From positions 1 to 35,195 of the forward strand of contig CADAAN010000007.1 in assembly GCA_902785935.1 (NCBI GenBank): DNA of 35,195 nucleotides, written 5' to 3'. Positions within the stretch are counted from its first letter, which is position 1. The number at the start of each line of letters is the position of its first letter. Below are positions 2,221 to 31,847 of the stretch, piece after piece. A program made the translations under genes and the position numbers. Source of the stretch: an uncultured Pseudomonadota bacterium (lineage in GTDB: Bacteria > Pseudomonadota > Alphaproteobacteria > RF32 > CAG-239). Below the pieces are notes generated by a model. The model saw nothing but the letters and a program-made list of their open reading frames with translations, made no database searches and was not told the DNA's origin.

Positions 2221-2474
2221 TGGATAGAAAAAGTGATTTTTTTATCAAGTACCCTGATAGGGTGCGGGGCTTTAGAAGGCTCTGACTTTGAGCAGTGAAC
2301 GATAACACTGTATTTTAGTGTTGTTTTTTTATTTTAAACAACAGTTATCCCCGAAGTTTTAGTCGGGGTGCTGATGGCGGATGTACAAGGTTTAGAACCT
2401 AAAGGCTATCAGAGTCATTTCTCAAAGTCTGATTTTCTAACACCCCGTCGCCCCTTGAATGGTGCGACTTTTTT
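2221..2474 (+). ncRNA. Structured RNA of unknown family (RNA-A copy 1)
   Basis: A transcript of about 254 nt is bounded by a strong promoter and an intrinsic terminator. No coding frame fits. Helices visible in the sequence are: 5' hairpin 2223-2246; short hairpin ACCCT/AGGGT at 2251-2262; a long closing stem in two blocks, 2272-2277 with 2435-2440 and 2284-2292 with 2421-2429; GATAAC 2301-2306 with GTTATC 2344-2349 enclosing a GTTGTTT/AAACAAC stem; CCCCGA/TCGGGG at 2349-2368; and CTGATGGC 2371-2378 with GCTATCAG 2405-2412, whose loop carries the conserved bases GGATGT and CCTAAAGG. A second copy at 13859-14107 keeps the same helices with different bases. I do not recognise the family. It could be a stand-alone sRNA or the leader of a gene now lost. 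Confidence 0.8.
2447..2474 (+). terminator. Intrinsic terminator of RNA-A copy 1
   Basis: GTCGC at 2447-2451 pairs with GCGAC at 2464-2468 and is followed directly by six T. The equivalent hairpin ends copy 2. Confidence 0.75.
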
Positions 2475-2482
2475 AATGGTGC

Positions 2483-13858: not shown

Positions 13859-14107
13859 AGATAGAGAAGAAACTTCTTTATCAAGTACCCTGATAGGGTG
13901 CGGGGCTGTAATGAGCCTTTGTTTCGTGCAGTGAAGGATAACACTGTTTTTGGTGTTGTTTTTTTATTTTAAACAACGACTTATCCCCGACAGATGCTCG
14001 GGGAGTCCGTAGCGGATGTCCAATGCAAATTCCTAAAGGTTGCGGAAGTCATTACACGAAACATGATTCATTAACTCCCCGTCGCTCCTTAAAGGTGCGG
14101 CTTTTTT
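13859..14107 (+). ncRNA. Structured RNA of unknown family (RNA-A copy 2)
   Basis: Second copy of the RNA at 2221-2474. It shares 31 identical bases (13877-13907) around the ACCCTGATAGGGT hairpin and 25 identical bases (13953-13977), but the helices differ in sequence while staying paired. The closing stem is TAATGAG 13909-13915 with TTCATTA 14067-14073 plus TTTCGTG 13922-13928 with CACGAAA 14055-14061, where copy 1 has TTAGAA/TTCTAA and GACTTTGAG/CTCAAAGTC. TCCGTAGC 14006-14013 pairs with GTTGCGGA 14039-14046, where copy 1 has CTGATGGC/GCTATCAG. It ends in the same kind of terminator. It lies directly upstream of the first BspA-like gene. Confidence 0.82.
14081..14107 (+). terminator. Intrinsic terminator of RNA-A copy 2
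   Basis: GTCGC at 14081-14085 faces GCGGC at 14097-14101 with a CCTT/AAGG core between them, and six T follow at 14102-14107. Confidence 0.7.
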
Positions 14108-14110
14108 GTA

Positions 14111-14187
14111 ATGACGTTAACAATAACCCGTCATGCTGAATTTATTTCAGCATCTCTTTAGATCCCGAAACAAGTTCGCCATGACGT
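14111..14187. repeat. REP-like dispersed palindrome inserted before the BspA-like gene
   Basis: Contains CGTCATGCTGAA, then a GCTGAA...TTCAGC hairpin, and GATCCCGAAACAAGTTCG ending in ATGACG. This type of CGTCAT-flanked palindrome is widespread as an intergenic repeat. It begins and ends with ATGACGT (14111-14117 and 14181-14187). It separates the RNA-A terminator from the 17-base flank that in copy 1 lies 8 bases after the terminator, so it looks like an insertion. Confidence 0.65.
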
Positions 14188-14212: not shown

Positions 14213-15499
14213 ATGAAAACACGATATTTAATTTTAATTGCAGGGTGTGCACTTTATGGCACAAATGCCTATGCCGCTTGCGCAAACAACCAAACTTGCG
14301 GCACAAACTGCTGTTGGGATTTAACTGGTGGAACGCTGACAATTTCTACAGATAATAAAGCAAGAGCAGGCGCGATGGAAAATTATGGCCTTTCTGAAAC
14401 TCCTTGGTATTCGCAAAGAAAAACTATCAAATCCGTTGTGGTTGAAGGTGCTAATGAAACGACAGGAACAAAGGGTATTACATCAATCGGAAATTATGCC
14501 TTTTATGGTGCTGAAAAAATGACTTCTGTGGTAATCCCAGAATCGGTTACATCAATTGGAGATAGTGCCTTTTTTAAGGCCAGTAGCTTAACCTCAGTTA
14601 CGATACCTAATTCAATAACAGCGATTGCGGATAGAGCTTTCTATGGTGCCATCAGCTTAACCTCAGTTACGATTCCCGATTCGGTCACTTCGATTGGAGC
14701 GGCTGCTTTTAGTAGTGGTACCAATTATGGAAGATTAGAAACTCTTGTAATTCCCGATTCGGTCACTTCGATTGGAGACGTTACATTTGGTATGCAACCA
14801 AATTTAACTTCATTAATTTTGAGCGATTCAGTTGAATCAATAGGTTATAGAATATTTAATCAAGCTCCTAAATTAAATTCTCTTGTTATTCCTGATTCGG
14901 TTTCGTTGATTGCGGATAATGCTTTTTTGGGTACAGGTTCTAACGGTACACTTTATTGCCCATCTACACTAGATTGCACAGGTAAAGGTTATAACGGCAC
15001 GATTGTCAGCTACACCAAAGGTGATGACGGGGTTTATACCACATCGGACGGTACGACTTATGCCTCGCCGGAAGATATGCAAAATAATCTTGCCTGCACG
15101 ACGGATTGCGCCGAAAAGGTTGCGGCATATAAAGATGCCAAGGCTCAATCGATGGCAGGAGGCAGTCTTTGTGCCACAAAAGATGCGTGCCTCAATCTGT
15201 TAGATATGGTTTCTGACAGTAATTATACCTGCGGTACAGGTGGCGCAAAAAATACAATTGCAAATTGCAGTGCGTATGTCAAAGCAAACAATATTGAACT
15301 TGCAAGCCTTTATGATAGAACTCCGCCTGTTAAGGAAGAAGAAATCGTCACAAGCAACGGCGGTGAAGACACGGGTGGTCTTGACGATGTTGAAAAAACA
15401 CCCTCAGCCCCAGCTCGCGCAGACATTCGCATCTATACCATCGATGAGGCCAATCAAGTTGCGGGCAAAACAAATTCCTTCAAAATAAGGTACAGATAA
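14213..15499 (+). CDS. Secreted BspA-like leucine-rich-repeat protein 1
   Basis: The 428-residue product starts with a signal peptide (MKTRYLILIAGCALYGTNAYA, cut near residue 21), then a Cys-rich segment and GGTLTIS. About seven BspA/LRR_5 repeats follow (residues about 80-260), of the form LTSVTIPDSVTSIGAAAF. The next part has cysteines and short helices, then a flexible acidic Gly/Thr/Pro linker and a C-terminal tail RIYTIDEANQVAGK ending in FKIRYR. The tail is almost identical to that of the protein at 24498-25922. BspA-like repeats mediate adhesion to host matrix or other cells; here function is inferred from the family. ATG 14213 has the ribosome site TAGGAG. RNA-A copy 2 and a REP-like element lie immediately upstream. 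Confidence 0.88.
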   Translation: MKTRYLILIAGCALYGTNAYAACANNQTCGTNCCWDLTGGTLTISTDNKARAGAMENYGLSETPWYSQRKTIKSVVVEGANETTGTKGITSIGNYAFYGAEKMTSVVIPESVTSIGDSAFFKASSLTSVTIPNSITAIADRAFYGAISLTSVTIPDSVTSIGAAAFSSGTNYGRLETLVIPDSVTSIGDVTFGMQPNLTSLILSDSVESIGYRIFNQAPKLNSLVIPDSVSLIADNAFLGTGSNGTLYCPSTLDCTGKGYNGTIVSYTKGDDGVYTTSDGTTYASPEDMQNNLACTTDCAEKVAAYKDAKAQSMAGGSLCATKDACLNLLDMVSDSNYTCGTGGAKNTIANCSAYVKANNIELASLYDRTPPVKEEEIVTSNGGEDTGGLDDVEKTPSAPARADIRIYTIDEANQVAGKTNSFKIRYR

Positions 15500-24497: not shown

Positions 24498-25922
24498 TTA
24501 ACGATAGCGAATCTTAAATGTGTTTATTTTTCCTGCCACCTGATTCGCCTCATCGATGGTATAAATGCGCTTATCAGCACGCACAGGGGCTGATGGAGTT
24601 TCAACGACATCGCCAGTACCGCCTGTGCCAGTACCGCCGTTTCCTTGACTGTCACCGCTGTAACTATCTTGTTGCGGATTATATGCTAAAGTGATATTAT
24701 TTCCGACATTTTCCAAATTAAGGCCAAAGGCTTCGCGATACATAAAAGGAAGAGCCTTTTCAAGTGCATCTTGGCAGTTATCACCCGTACAATTGATTTG
24801 AAGCTGCCTTGCACGTAGATTTACTTTTGCCTCTTCAAGATATGGTTGTGCGGATTCCAAATATTCTTGAAACCCTTGTTTGTAAGGTAGCATCTCTTTC
24901 AAATCTGCTTCCAATTCTTCTTTATTCATACCCATTTGTTCCAATTGTTCAGGATCTATTTCTTCTCCTGTTTGTATTTTATAGAATTCTGCCAATATTG
25001 GTTTCATCTTATCATAAGCATCCATTCCTTCATTCTCGTATAATTCCAGTAATTCTGAATACACTTTATACTGTCCATACGAAGAAAAGCCTTCGCCGTA
25101 GCTATTATTATCAAGTAGCTCTGCAAGATTCATTTGAGCTAAATTTGAATCAGATACTGTTATGTTTGTTAAACCACTTAAACTGCCAAATGCACCTTCT
25201 CCGATAGTTTCTACCGAATCCGGTATTGTCAGCGATGTCAAACTTGTAGCACCACTAAAGGCACTGGATCCAATAGATGTCACAGAATCAGGTATCGTCA
25301 ATGATGTCAAACTACTCGCATTTTTAAAAGCATCCATCCCAATAGATGTCACAGAATCAGGTATCGTTAGAGAAGTTAAACTTGTGGCTCCCATAAAGGC
25401 ACCATCTCCAATAGATGTAACCGAATCAGGTATCGTCAATGATGTCAAACTTGTGGCATTGCTAAAGGCTTCAGTTCCAATAGATGTAACCGAATTAGGG
25501 ATAGTCAGGGAAGTTAAACTTGTGGCATTGTCAAAGGCATGTTCTCCGATAGATTTCACCGAATTTGGGATGGTTAATGATGTTAAGCTACCGGCATAAC
25601 GAAAAGCATTCTCTCCGATAGATTTCACCGAATTTGGGATGGTTAGTGATGTTAAGTTGTTGGCAGCATAAAAGGCTGTATCCCCTATGCTTGTAATTCC
25701 TTCTTCCACAACAATGGATGTAATGCTGCCGATTGAATCAGCCCATGGAGCACTACCAGTATAGCTACCATCATAATTTGTCATCTCACCCTTGCCGGAA
25801 ATGGTTAAAGTACCATCAACCAAATTTGCCGTACAATCGGTGCCGCAAGACCAACTCTCAGCTCTCAAATTTGCAGATAAAACAGTTGTCATCATTAATA
25901 CAAATATAAATTTTTTGTTCAT
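24498..25922 (-). CDS. Secreted BspA-like leucine-rich-repeat protein 2
   Basis: The 474-residue product has a signal peptide (MNKKFIFVLMMTTVLSANLRA, then ESWSCGTDC), the segment DGTLTISGKGEMTNYDG, and eight BspA/LRR_5 repeats of about 23 residues (TSLTSLTIPDSVTSIGDGAF type). A helical acidic region with LSDSNLAQMN, YSELLELYENEGMDAYDKMK and EEIDPEQLEQMGMNKEELE follows, then a Gly/Thr linker and the tail RIYTIDEANQVAGK ending FKIRYR. I chose ATG 25922 because GGAG precedes it and a signal peptide follows; the longer frame runs into the leader RNA. The repeats at nucleotide level are nearly identical, which allows recombination. Likely a surface or secreted adhesin-type protein, by family analogy. 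Confidence 0.88.
   Translation of the reverse strand: MNKKFIFVLMMTTVLSANLRAESWSCGTDCTANLVDGTLTISGKGEMTNYDGSYTGSAPWADSIGSITSIVVEEGITSIGDTAFYAANNLTSLTIPNSVKSIGENAFRYAGSLTSLTIPNSVKSIGEHAFDNATSLTSLTIPNSVTSIGTEAFSNATSLTSLTIPDSVTSIGDGAFMGATSLTSLTIPDSVTSIGMDAFKNASSLTSLTIPDSVTSIGSSAFSGATSLTSLTIPDSVETIGEGAFGSLSGLTNITVSDSNLAQMNLAELLDNNSYGEGFSSYGQYKVYSELLELYENEGMDAYDKMKPILAEFYKIQTGEEIDPEQLEQMGMNKEELEADLKEMLPYKQGFQEYLESAQPYLEEAKVNLRARQLQINCTGDNCQDALEKALPFMYREAFGLNLENVGNNITLAYNPQQDSYSGDSQGNGGTGTGGTGDVVETPSAPVRADKRIYTIDEANQVAGKINTFKIRYR
25200..25700 (-). repeat. Tandem 69-base repeats coding for LRR_5 units
   Basis: Eight units of 69 bases encode the repeats of BspA-like protein 2; the central ones differ at only a few positions. 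Copy number could vary between strains by slippage or recombination. Confidence 0.75.
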
Positions 25923-26108
25923 ATCAATTCTCCAATTTACAAAATAAAAAAATTCCGTTTCAAATAACCTAAAACGGAGGAGCTGATAAACTGTAGTTGC
26001 ACAGATGAACTTATTCGCCGCCAACATATAACGCTTATATCGTCCGCTCCCCTTAAAGGAGCAATGCAACTATTGATGTTTATCAAACACCGCAACCATT
26101 TTGGTTAC
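25923..26108 (-). promoter_or_regulatory. Structured leader with internal terminator upstream of BspA-like gene 2 (RNA-C)
   Basis: From the predicted start near 26108 the leader forms nested helices: TGATAAAC (26085-26078) with GTTTATCA (25991-25984), TAGTTGCA (26072-26065) with TGCAACTA (26001-25994), and a GCTCC/GGAGC hairpin at 26046-26062. It then contains an intrinsic terminator, CCGTTT (25977-25972) with AAACGG (25960-25955) plus a T run, about 30 bases before ATG 25922. This could be a separate sRNA or a transcription-attenuation leader. No known family recognised. Confidence 0.55.
25945..25977 (-). terminator. Terminator inside the leader of BspA-like gene 2
   Basis: On the minus strand CCGTTT and AAACGG form a stem (25977-25972 with 25960-25955), followed by seven T. 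It lies upstream of the coding region, so read-through decides gene expression if the leader is continuous with the gene. Confidence 0.65.
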
Positions 26109-26114
26109 GCTTTG

Positions 26115-26143
26115 ATTATGGCATACTTCAAATTTACTGTCAA
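26115..26143 (-). promoter_or_regulatory. Promoter of the BspA-like gene 2 leader
   Basis: On the minus strand TTGACA (26143-26138), a 17-base spacer and CATAAT (26120-26115). It lies directly behind the dnaA terminator. Confidence 0.75.
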
Positions 26144-26150
26144 TAAAAAA

Positions 26151-26182
26151 ATAAAAAACCCCGCTGATATACTCAAACGGGG
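26151..26182 (-). terminator. Terminator of dnaA
   Basis: On the minus strand CCCCG (26182-26178) pairs with CGGGG (26163-26159), followed by a T run. Confidence 0.85.
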
Positions 26183-29189: not shown

Positions 29190-30518
29190 TTAGCCTGCAA
29201 AGTATTTGAAGTACAGATAAATGCCTGAAATTAAAACGGAAAAGAGCATTACCGGTATTGAAAAAAGCAAAAAGCCCATAAATTTTATCGGATGCCCTTC
29301 ACGCGCGGCAAGACCGGCCACAATCACGTTGGCCGAAGCTCCGATAAGCGACCCGTTTCCTCCGAAACATGCCCCGAGTGACAAAGCCCACCACACGGGC
29401 ATCATTGCCTCTCTGCCGCCAAAACTCGGCTCCATTGATTTTAATATCGGAATCATCGTTGCTACAAACGGAATATTGTCAATCGCCGCCGAAACAAACG
29501 AAGATATCGTTAAAATTGCAAAAGTTGCACGCTTTAAGCTCCCTTGCGTCATAGTGATAAATTTTTGTCCGAGCAGCTCCAAAATGCCTGTTTTTTCAAG
29601 CCCGAACACAACCATAAACAACCCGCAGAAAAAGAAAATCGTCGTCCAATCTACAAGATTAAACATTTCTTCCGTTTTTTCATCTCTTAAATCGGGTTTT
29701 TCATTTAAGGTATACAGCATCAACAAAAGCGCTGCACCCAAAAGTGCAATTACCCCGTTTGCAAGCTGGAATTCTTCAGCCATAATAAAGCCTGAAATAA
29801 CAAGTGCCAGAATGCTGAGTGATTTATATAAAAGCGGTTTGTTCGTGATGTTGGCAAAAGCATTCATCTTCATAACCAAAATACGGTTTTTATCTGATGC
29901 CTTGAGTGCATTTTTGAAAATCAGCACAAAACTTATCATAAGAACAGTCATCGATATCAATACAACAGGCGCTAAATTAACCAAAAAATCGGTAAATGAC
30001 AGATTAAGCGCCGATCCGATAAGAATATTCGGAGGATCACCGATAAGTGTTGCTGTTCCGCCAATGTTTGAGGCAAAAATCTCAAGAAGCAAATAAGGAT
30101 AAGGCAAAATTTCGAGCTTTCGGGTGATTTGAATGGTAACCGGCACAATTAATAAAACCGTAGTCACATTATCCAAAAATGCCGAAAATACCCCTGTAAT
30201 AATGCCAAGCATCACAAGTATACCTATCGGATTGGCCTTGACCTTTTGCGCACTCCATACCGCAACAAACTGAAACAATCCCGATCGCTCGGTCACGGAT
30301 ACAATCACCATCATTCCGATAAGAAGTGAAATCGTGTTAAAATCAATACTTTCAAAAGCCTCAGACTGTGAAACAATACCCGATAAAATCATAAATGTTG
30401 CGGCAAAAAGCGTTGTTACCGCGCGATTGACTTTTTCTGAAAACAACACCACATAGCATGCCGCCATAATCATTGAGGCAATAATTTTAGGATTTGTGAT
30501 ATAAGTTAAATCAAACAT
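29190..30518 (-). CDS. NhaD/ArsB-type ion transporter 1
   Basis: The 442-residue product has about eleven membrane helices and the conserved blocks of the NhaD/ArsB/P-protein branch of the ion transporter superfamily: FLDNVTTVLLIVPVTI, ASNIGGTATLIGDPPNILIG, and in the second half AIDNIPFVATMIPILK and LGACFGGNGSLIGASANVIV. The repeated D-N and G-D-P-P-N motifs form the ion/substrate sites in the two inverted halves. Substrate could be Na+/H+, arsenite or a carboxylate and cannot be told apart here. It lies 15 bases after a close paralogue on the same strand, so the two probably form one transcription unit. Confidence 0.85.
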   Translation of the reverse strand: MFDLTYITNPKIIASMIMAACYVVLFSEKVNRAVTTLFAATFMILSGIVSQSEAFESIDFNTISLLIGMMVIVSVTERSGLFQFVAVWSAQKVKANPIGILVMLGIITGVFSAFLDNVTTVLLIVPVTIQITRKLEILPYPYLLLEIFASNIGGTATLIGDPPNILIGSALNLSFTDFLVNLAPVVLISMTVLMISFVLIFKNALKASDKNRILVMKMNAFANITNKPLLYKSLSILALVISGFIMAEEFQLANGVIALLGAALLLMLYTLNEKPDLRDEKTEEMFNLVDWTTIFFFCGLFMVVFGLEKTGILELLGQKFITMTQGSLKRATFAILTISSFVSAAIDNIPFVATMIPILKSMEPSFGGREAMMPVWWALSLGACFGGNGSLIGASANVIVAGLAAREGHPIKFMGFLLFSIPVMLFSVLISGIYLYFKYFAG

Positions 30519-30533: not shown

Positions 30534-31847
30534 CTAAAAAAAGTACAAAAAGTATATGTATCCCGTCGCAAGTATCATTGATACAAGCATAACTGGCAAG
30601 CCGTATATCAAAAATTTTGCAAAACTGATCGGATGTCCTTCGCGCGAGGCAAAACCAGCCACAATCACATTTGCCGATGCGGCAATCAGCGACCCGTTTC
30701 CGCCAAAGCATGAACCGAGCGATAATGCCCACCACACGGGCATCATCGCCTCTCTGCCGCCCATCGCGGATTCTATCGATTTTAAGGTCGGTATCATCGT
30801 CGCCACAAACGGGATATTGTCGATAAAAGTCGATAAAACAGCAGATCCCCATAACACGGCAAATGCAGCTTTTTGCACACTGTTTTGCGTTAAATAAAGC
30901 AAATAATTGCCTAAAACGCTCAAAACACCTGTTATTTCCAACGCATACACAATCGCAAACAATCCGCAAAAAAAGAAAATCGTCGTCCAATCCACAAGCG
31001 AAAAAGCATCTTCAACTTTTTGATCGCGGATATTATGTTCTTCACCCGATGTATATAAAAAGAGCATCAACGCCGCGCCGAAAAGGGCGATTGTCCCGTT
31101 TTCAAGATGCAAATATTCAGCCAAAATAAAACCGACCAAAACAAGCAACAAAACAAAAAGTGATTGATAAAAAAGTATCTTTTTGGTAATTATATCTTTT
31201 GGATTAATACTCATCAATGAATGTCTGCTTGCATCATCTGCTTTTAATTTTCGCCCGATGAAGACATCAAAAACAACGAGCAAAACAAAAAGATTGATGA
31301 TAACAATTGGTGTTAATTGACCTACAAAATCCATAAATGATAAATGAAGCGCCGACCCGATAAGGATATTCGGCGGATCGCCGATAAGCGTTGCCGTCCC
31401 GCCGATGTTTGAGGCAAAAATTTCAAGTAGTAAAAAGGATAATGGTTTTAATTTTAAGGCACGCGTTACCTCAAAAGTCACAGGCACAATTAATAAAACC
31501 GTCGTCACATTATCCAAAAGCGCCGACAAAACAGCCGTTAAAATACCAAACATCAGCAAAATACCTCGCGGAGATGCTTTGACCGCTTTGGCGCTTAAAA
31601 TGGCCAAGGCCTGAAACATACCCGATTTTTCGGATATGCCGACCACAACCATCATCCCGATAAGAAGCGAAATTGTATTAAAATCAATACCTTCAATCGC
31701 CGTTTGTTGGCTCAAAATCCCCGTCAAAATCAAAGCAGACGTGCCAAGCAAAACCACAACCGCACGATTGAGCTTTTCGGTAAATAAAAAGATATAGCTG
31801 ACAATCAAAACAAAAACAGCAATTATTTGAGGACCGAGCCAAAACAT
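30534..31847 (-). CDS. NhaD/ArsB-type ion transporter 2
   Basis: The 437-residue product is a paralogue of the downstream gene with the same motifs (LLDNVTTVLLIVPVTF, ASNIGGTATLIGDPPNILIG, FIDNIPFVATMIPTLK, LGSCFGGNGSLIAASANVIV). Long blocks are identical between the two proteins, while helix 1, the loop after GDPPN and the central linker have diverged. This points to an old tandem duplication with retained core function or divergent specificity. ATG 31847 has the ribosome site AAAGGA. Confidence 0.85.
   Translation of the reverse strand: MFWLGPQIIAVFVLIVSYIFLFTEKLNRAVVVLLGTSALILTGILSQQTAIEGIDFNTISLLIGMMVVVGISEKSGMFQALAILSAKAVKASPRGILLMFGILTAVLSALLDNVTTVLLIVPVTFEVTRALKLKPLSFLLLEIFASNIGGTATLIGDPPNILIGSALHLSFMDFVGQLTPIVIINLFVLLVVFDVFIGRKLKADDASRHSLMSINPKDIITKKILFYQSLFVLLLVLVGFILAEYLHLENGTIALFGAALMLFLYTSGEEHNIRDQKVEDAFSLVDWTTIFFFCGLFAIVYALEITGVLSVLGNYLLYLTQNSVQKAAFAVLWGSAVLSTFIDNIPFVATMIPTLKSIESAMGGREAMMPVWWALSLGSCFGGNGSLIAASANVIVAGFASREGHPISFAKFLIYGLPVMLVSMILATGYIYFLYFF

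Follow-up and report, generated by a model that had tools for sequence, protein, structure and literature searches.

A short C-terminal tail shared by secreted proteins of diverse architecture in uncultured Alphaproteobacteria: a candidate recognition tag on exchangeable gene cassettes

Short C-terminal regions on unrelated Sec-exported proteins, sporadic among relatives and arranged many-to-one, are known from the LPXTG/sortase, PEP-CTERM/exosortase, GlyGly-CTERM/rhombosortase and MYXO-CTERM/myxosortase systems (PMC3237569, PMC11980579), with up to thirteen copies per genome reported for GlyGly-CTERM. A non-transmembrane signal on Sec substrates, among them BspA and the KLIKK proteases of Tannerella, is the C-terminal domain of the type IX secretion system (T9SS), reported solely from Bacteroidetes, which for the present case is a purely taxonomic argument (PMC5445135, PMC8869499, PMC4404884). 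Here we describe a tail that is similar to both groups in these respects. It was noticed at the end of two BspA-like proteins encoded in a stretch of 35,195 nucleotides (hereafter the window; contig CADAAN010000007.1 of assembly GCA_902785935.1) from an uncultured alphaproteobacterium of the CAG-239 lineage, and it recurs on proteins of several unrelated architectures, with sequence dialects that follow the genome and not the body.

The tails of the two window proteins, carrier 1 and carrier 2 (Table 1), are nearly identical, as the original prediction had claimed, with 29 of 33 residues the same (88%, E 1.1e-14). It had seen only these two proteins; both are confirmed, but carriers are far more numerous, with about 110 frames in the window's own genome (G000; 1.46 Mb, 99% complete). 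Searched against this genome with tblastn, the 33-residue tail matched 115 places at E<=10, and about 100 of them have E<1e-4, which excludes a chance match. We extracted 112 distinct frames, nearly all with a stop codon directly after the last tail residue; 18 are shorter than 200 residues, several of these being broken or partial copies. The general tail comprises the last 23-24 residues and follows the pattern xIYT[IV][DE]EA..(A/S)(G/K)xx(G)N-x-[FV]-x-[IL]-R-Y-[RK] up to the stop; only seven carriers, a subgroup, have the TPSAPxRAD extension seen in the window. Of 221 carriers, 220 have an aromatic residue in the penultimate position, and 220 end in a charged one (R/K or E/D). In our alignments the A3 row KNRRIYTVEEAEKVSKPTGNTFKLRYK is a composed consensus that comes from no locus, and a few rows of A3 and A4 start with one to four adapted flanking residues; the tail cores of A2, A4 and A5 are as observed. 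Frameshifted or deleted carriers of which tail pieces alone are left (L362, L363, L096, L077, and L045) give a picture of birth-and-death within the family.

For signal peptides we used a home-made rule instead of SignalP: in its loose form a Sec signal peptide was found in 87 of the 94 long G000 frames (the remainder being truncated, broken, or positive by eye), and in its strict form, over all genomes, 169 of 211 carriers passed, compared with 54 of 353 non-carriers encoded nearby (15%), so that the tail is not a mark of proteins lacking signal peptides. The regions preceding the tail had been predicted to be unrelated. For the two window proteins this was too strong, both being BspA leucine-rich repeat (LRR) bodies related in kind, which match PF13306 (LRR_5) above the gathering score (E 6e-38 and 8e-60); genome-wide it stands, similarity between G000 copies being at background by about 70 nucleotides (nt) upstream of the tail and directly past the stop. 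Of the 87 full-length carriers, 69 have a Pfam match to LRR_5 (E<=0.01) and the others to RHS or MORN repeats or to nothing, and by inspection the bodies comprise LRR, YD/RHS-like repeat, Cys-rich and diverged LRR kinds. In G006, a genome that is 59% complete, we found ten tails and not a single LRR_5 match; most carriers there are small proteins of 120-160 residues, with a signal peptide, a short domain, an N/S-rich linker and the tail. It is evident that the tail sits on several unrelated architectures.

AlphaFold2 predicts carrier 1 as an LRR solenoid (predicted local distance difference test, pLDDT, >90 over most of it), whose nearest solved fold is the BspA-type LRR 4h09, followed by a disordered linker and a low-confidence tail with a short helix; another carrier that was modelled has a similar tail. 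The flexible linker before the tail, also part of the original prediction, is Gly-rich in both window proteins, and in carrier 1 pLDDT is <50 across most of residues 370-405. A stable mini-domain is unsupported by these models, in which the tail looks like a peptide that would fold on a partner. None of the 221 carriers has a transmembrane segment in the last 45 residues (the maximum 17-residue hydropathy is 0.8, and none reaches 1.6), and the tail has no match in Pfam and NCBIfam, T9SS sorting-domain models included, and no meaningful one among PDB sequences; a Shiga toxin B match below threshold (16.7 vs 203 bits) was dismissed as chance. The tail had been said not to fit LPXTG and similar signals, and this holds: with LPXTG, PEP-CTERM, GlyGly-CTERM and MYXO-CTERM proteins the carriers share the signal peptide, as called by our heuristic rule, but not the C-terminal transmembrane helix and basic cluster. 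An outer-membrane beta-signal, that is, a C-terminal Phe ending a barrel strand, is likewise contradicted by the charged last residue (220/221) and the LRR solenoid bodies. The tail belongs to none of the signal families tested.

The tail of the window's genus, which we call dialect A, is present in 9 of its 11 genomes and in 0 of 141 other genomes of the family, whose few LRR_5 proteins are without it. Within the genus, LRR_5 counts increase along with tail counts (LRR_5/tail: G000 90/118, G007 112/116, G001 84/96, G004 9/17, G008 1/0, and G002 0/0). Among the best loci kept from a scan of 84,980 species we found solely alphaproteobacterial or proteobacterial metagenome-assembled genomes, of which nearly all are rumen ones. 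Searches of phages, plasmids and viral contigs gave no match, and a mobile-element origin was rejected on this ground. A second dialect, B (..NENMIEWIFE before the stop, typically RYTLPEADAATSNDNENMIEWIFE), ends at least 55 proteins of G146, a genome of another genus (loci L321-L350), on LRR, YD-like and Cys-rich bodies, and was found in none of the other g3 genomes searched. Profiles of the two dialects match each other in hhalign (probability 95.5, E 1.5e-8) and share a terminal hydrophobic-x-hydrophobic-x-aromatic pattern. A third variant, NYTASEAAIAATGHGDNSLSFYFR before the stop, ends a 525-residue BspA LRR protein without the A tail (L358, G000:C23:6300-9300); this protein adjoins a pilin-like protein, GRSMVEMLGVLAVVGVLSAGALAGY.

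Tail copies within G000 have 79% amino-acid and 71% nucleotide identity, and the stop codon behind them varies (TAA, TGA, and TAG). The proportions of synonymous (pS) and non-synonymous (pN) differences in the tail are 0.73 and 0.15 in G000 and 0.61 and 0.10 in G146, a pN/pS of about 0.2; with synonymous sites near saturation and pN this low, the copies must be old and constrained at the protein level. Recent gene duplication is ruled out by this near-saturation, and together with the several unrelated body architectures it shows that the tail is not limited to recent duplicates of one gene. Tail identity tracks the genome, not the body, in what amounts to genome-specific dialects: within G000 it is 74% between LRR carriers and 77% between LRR and YD carriers, within G146 92% and 95%, and between genomes 31-75% for LRR carriers, with body classes assigned by pattern and YD samples being small (five in G000, one in G146). 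For the final eight codons pS stands at about 0.9 whether copies are compared within or between genomes, and pN is 0.12-0.19 within and 0.27-0.45 between them, values which, being saturated, cannot be dated. At syntenic loci, where carriers of different species stand beside the same housekeeping gene (e.g., L206, L241, and L192), the tails are mostly of their own genome's dialect.

The bodies, for their part, are exchanged across loci and species, and the junctions lie at the start and in the tail, as follows from breakpoints within the tail and from pairs that share flanks around a swapped body. In the six most similar reciprocal best pairs from different species, amino-acid identity is 86-93% up to KRIYT and then 48-74% in the tail, near-identical bodies breaking off 33-60 nt before the stop. 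At the DNA level identity between L131 and L018 is 97% over 460 nt and reaches 100% in the last full 60-nt block before the break, which lies inside the tail codons and beyond which identity falls to 58% with an indel. Conversely, L101 (LRR) and L131 (YD) have 265 nt upstream to the start codon in common (93.6%), as well as the tail and 3' flank from -77 to +86 (92%), and encode different proteins in between; L192 and L241 have -77 to +600 in common and not the body. Incoming genes appear usually to take the resident distal tail, as selection by a genome-specific reader would give.

We hold with moderate confidence that the tail is a C-terminal recognition tag for sorting or anchoring, read by one genome-specific partner and carried on exchangeable cassettes. 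The sorting or anchoring signal originally proposed agrees with the diverse bodies, the signal peptides and the extreme C-terminal position, from which we infer the role itself, the partner and the surface destination. The tag, about 24 residues long, would probably begin with a short strand, followed by a short helix and then by a terminal strand that is amphipathic (F-x-I-R-Y-R or I-E-W-I-F-E); in the free protein it would be flexible. A carrier would leave via Sec, and one shared periplasmic or outer-membrane partner would recognise its tag and place it on the cell surface. The bodies would be free to change, being exchanged between loci and species by recombination joining at the leader or start and inside the tag. 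Since a single partner would serve every carrier, the tags of one genome would remain alike and would diverge jointly from those of other genomes.

Several results weigh against this reading. No gene family recurs beside carriers in more than 4 of 78 loci, which rules out a conserved neighbour gene as the partner, and neither a partner nor a processing or secretion enzyme was found, in whole-genome searches aimed at Omp85 and secretin and not at sortase, exosortase or rhomboid. Omp85 is single-copy throughout the genus, whether or not a genome has the tail, and also in G146, so a tail-specific extra Omp85 is ruled out within the genus; the same search (G000-G010, G146, G012, G026, and G144) found two or three copies in sister g3 genomes, probably BamA plus a TamA-like protein. 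One PilN-like secretin is present in 14 of the 15 genomes searched irrespective of the tail, and a tail-specific secretin is thereby ruled out. In L390 (G000:C9) and L398 (G146:C24), as in nearly all genomes searched, this PilN-like lipoprotein secretin is followed by a pilus-assembly-like gene, and it is a possible outer-membrane exit. AlphaFold2 gave no confident fold for the tail, and the signal peptide calls come from a home-made rule. Codon use in the tails (ACC 0.84, GAG 0.77, AGG 0.59) is unlike that of the bodies (0.14, 0.19, and 0.13) and also of housekeeping genes (0.21, 0.24, and 0.09), so some homogenisation of the tails at the DNA level is likely and part of their uniformity may stem from it.

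The main rival, rather unlikely in our judgement, is a docking tag: the tail would bind a scaffold or other carriers, dockerin-like or by strand exchange into a fibre, building a surface coat of interchangeable subunits instead of directing export. The many-to-one arrangement on diverse bodies, species-specific dialects, the flexible linkers of some carriers and an amphipathic terminal strand would all suit it, but a docking module would not have to sit so strictly at the very C-terminus, and neither a scaffold partner nor a gene recurring next to the carriers is known. The codon bias of the tails, together with the bodies that stop 33-60 nt before the stop codon and the pairs sharing only tail and 3' flank from about -77 onward, could also be read as a recombination anchor, a conserved 3' end for cassette exchange with little function in the protein. 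We regard this as improbable, given a pN/pS of about 0.2 at near-saturated synonymous sites, a reading frame and C-terminal position that are kept while the stop codon varies, and dialects that differ in amino acids at equal synonymous divergence.

Similarly improbable is an outer-membrane assembly signal, in which the last strand would imitate the signature at the C-terminus of outer-membrane proteins, and the single BamA would recognise it. The terminal pattern common to both dialects and the one Omp85, presumably BamA, of the genus and G146 would agree with it; however, the modelled bodies are solenoids and not barrels, the final residue is charged and not Phe, and BamA is equally present in genomes without the tail. 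Ordinary descent, with the tail as the conserved C-terminus of one expanded BspA family, would account for the predominance of LRR_5 (69 of 87 carriers) and for LRR_5 counts tracking tail counts across the genus. It is very improbable in view of the YD/RHS-like, Cys-rich and small N/S-rich carriers, the ten tails of G006 with zero LRR_5, and the tailless LRR_5 proteins elsewhere in the family.

Carriers are also preceded by leaders of about 250 nt, which by nucleotide similarity fall into a commoner type 1 and a type 2: among 86 G000 carriers, 46 have type 1, 43 type 2, 7 both and 4 neither (82/86 with one). In the 27 pairs of the type-1 core, 98.4% of cells are paired, and the double-sided changes number 173, more than in any shuffled (mean 50) or slid (14-29) control, strong evidence of a covarying structured RNA. 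The window leaders matched nothing in Rfam at E<=1, and no Rfam match overlaps the leaders in L204, L178, L321 and L192. The type-1 covariance model also matches loci of named metagenome-assembled genomes and of G146, that is, in two genera; 36 of its 41 matches are counted as preceding a tagged gene or an open reading frame (ORF) cut by a contig end, and all of the others except L215 are found at the ends of contigs or in front of broken carriers. In both types a terminator-like hairpin closes the leader just ahead of the ribosome-binding site, so the leaders would be likely to regulate by attenuation. The type-2 leader of the window has covarying helices and a layout like that of type 1, of which it is possibly a subtype. 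The orphan type-1 leader in the window is apparently an empty slot. Elsewhere in the window, two tandem similar genes on the minus strand (29190-30518 and 30534-31847; 442 and 437 residues) contain repeat blocks with 72-81% DNA identity.

Table 1. Features of the window associated with tailed proteins and their leader RNAs.
Feature	Position	Strand	Description
Carrier 1	14213-15499	+	Sec signal peptide MKTRYLILIAGCALYGTNAYA, BspA LRR body, disordered linker, C-terminal tail
Linker before carrier 1 tail	15320-15397	+	Flexible, residues ~370-395, mostly pLDDT <50
Carrier 1 tail	15398-15496	+	TPSAPARADIRIYTIDEANQVAGKTNSFKIRYR, directly before stop; general 23-residue tag at 15428-15496
Type-1 structured leader RNA of carrier 1	13862-14112	+	Covariance-model core 13918-14065, 138 bits; ends in terminator-like hairpin, then ribosome-binding site
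Carrier 2	24498-25922	-	Signal peptide MNKKFIFVLMMTTVLSANLRA, BspA LRR body, Gly/Thr linker, tail; ORF 24498-26069, likely start 25922
Carrier 2 tail	24501-24599	-	TPSAPVRADKRIYTIDEANQVAGKINTFKIRYR; sequence match to carrier 1 tail
Type-2 leader of carrier 2	25923-26180 (approximate)	-	Promoter-like TTGACA..ATAAT, hairpins, terminator-like hairpin before ribosome-binding site
Orphan type-1 leader RNA	2224-2480	+	No gene body behind; precedes tRNA at 2691-2763

More tentatively, these elements could together form an undescribed surface-display system of gut alphaproteobacteria, in which a dedicated, co-evolving receptor or translocon reads the 24-residue tag, and genes made of leader RNA, signal peptide, exchangeable body and tag are swapped between loci and species, controlled by a new class of structured leader RNA. 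If the tag is a sorting signal, about 8% of a 1.46-Mb genome (~110 genes of ~1 kb) would serve an unknown export or anchoring route in Alphaproteobacteria, and sequence would suffice to list the secreted proteome of these uncultured rumen bacteria. Through co-variation with the genome-specific dialects the partner might be traced, and the leader RNA, a covarying structure outside Rfam that stands before tagged genes of two genera, is a second discovery that can be tested.

Compared with the sortase-like systems, LPXTG, PEP-CTERM, GlyGly-CTERM and MYXO-CTERM, the tail has neither a transmembrane helix nor the succession of motif, helix and basic cluster, and its copies per genome are far more numerous than those of GlyGly-CTERM. 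The type IX C-terminal domain is a larger folded beta-sandwich, whereas the tail has 24 residues and no library match to its models. In cellulosomes many secreted proteins bear one docking module, the dockerin, with species-specific pairing; unlike dockerins, the tail is without calcium-binding repeats and fixed at the last residue, and its carriers are no recognisable enzymes. To our knowledge no such tail has been described for the BspA-like proteins of Trichomonas. That family, in a eukaryote, resembles ours as a very large lineage-specific expansion of BspA LRR proteins (PMC2843621). The exchange of bodies is like that of the Bab/Hop adhesins of Helicobacter pylori, where recombination swaps gene parts within surface families, as between babA and babB (PMC3444412), but here it involves dispersed single loci, bodies of different kinds, a 24-residue tail and a structured leader RNA.
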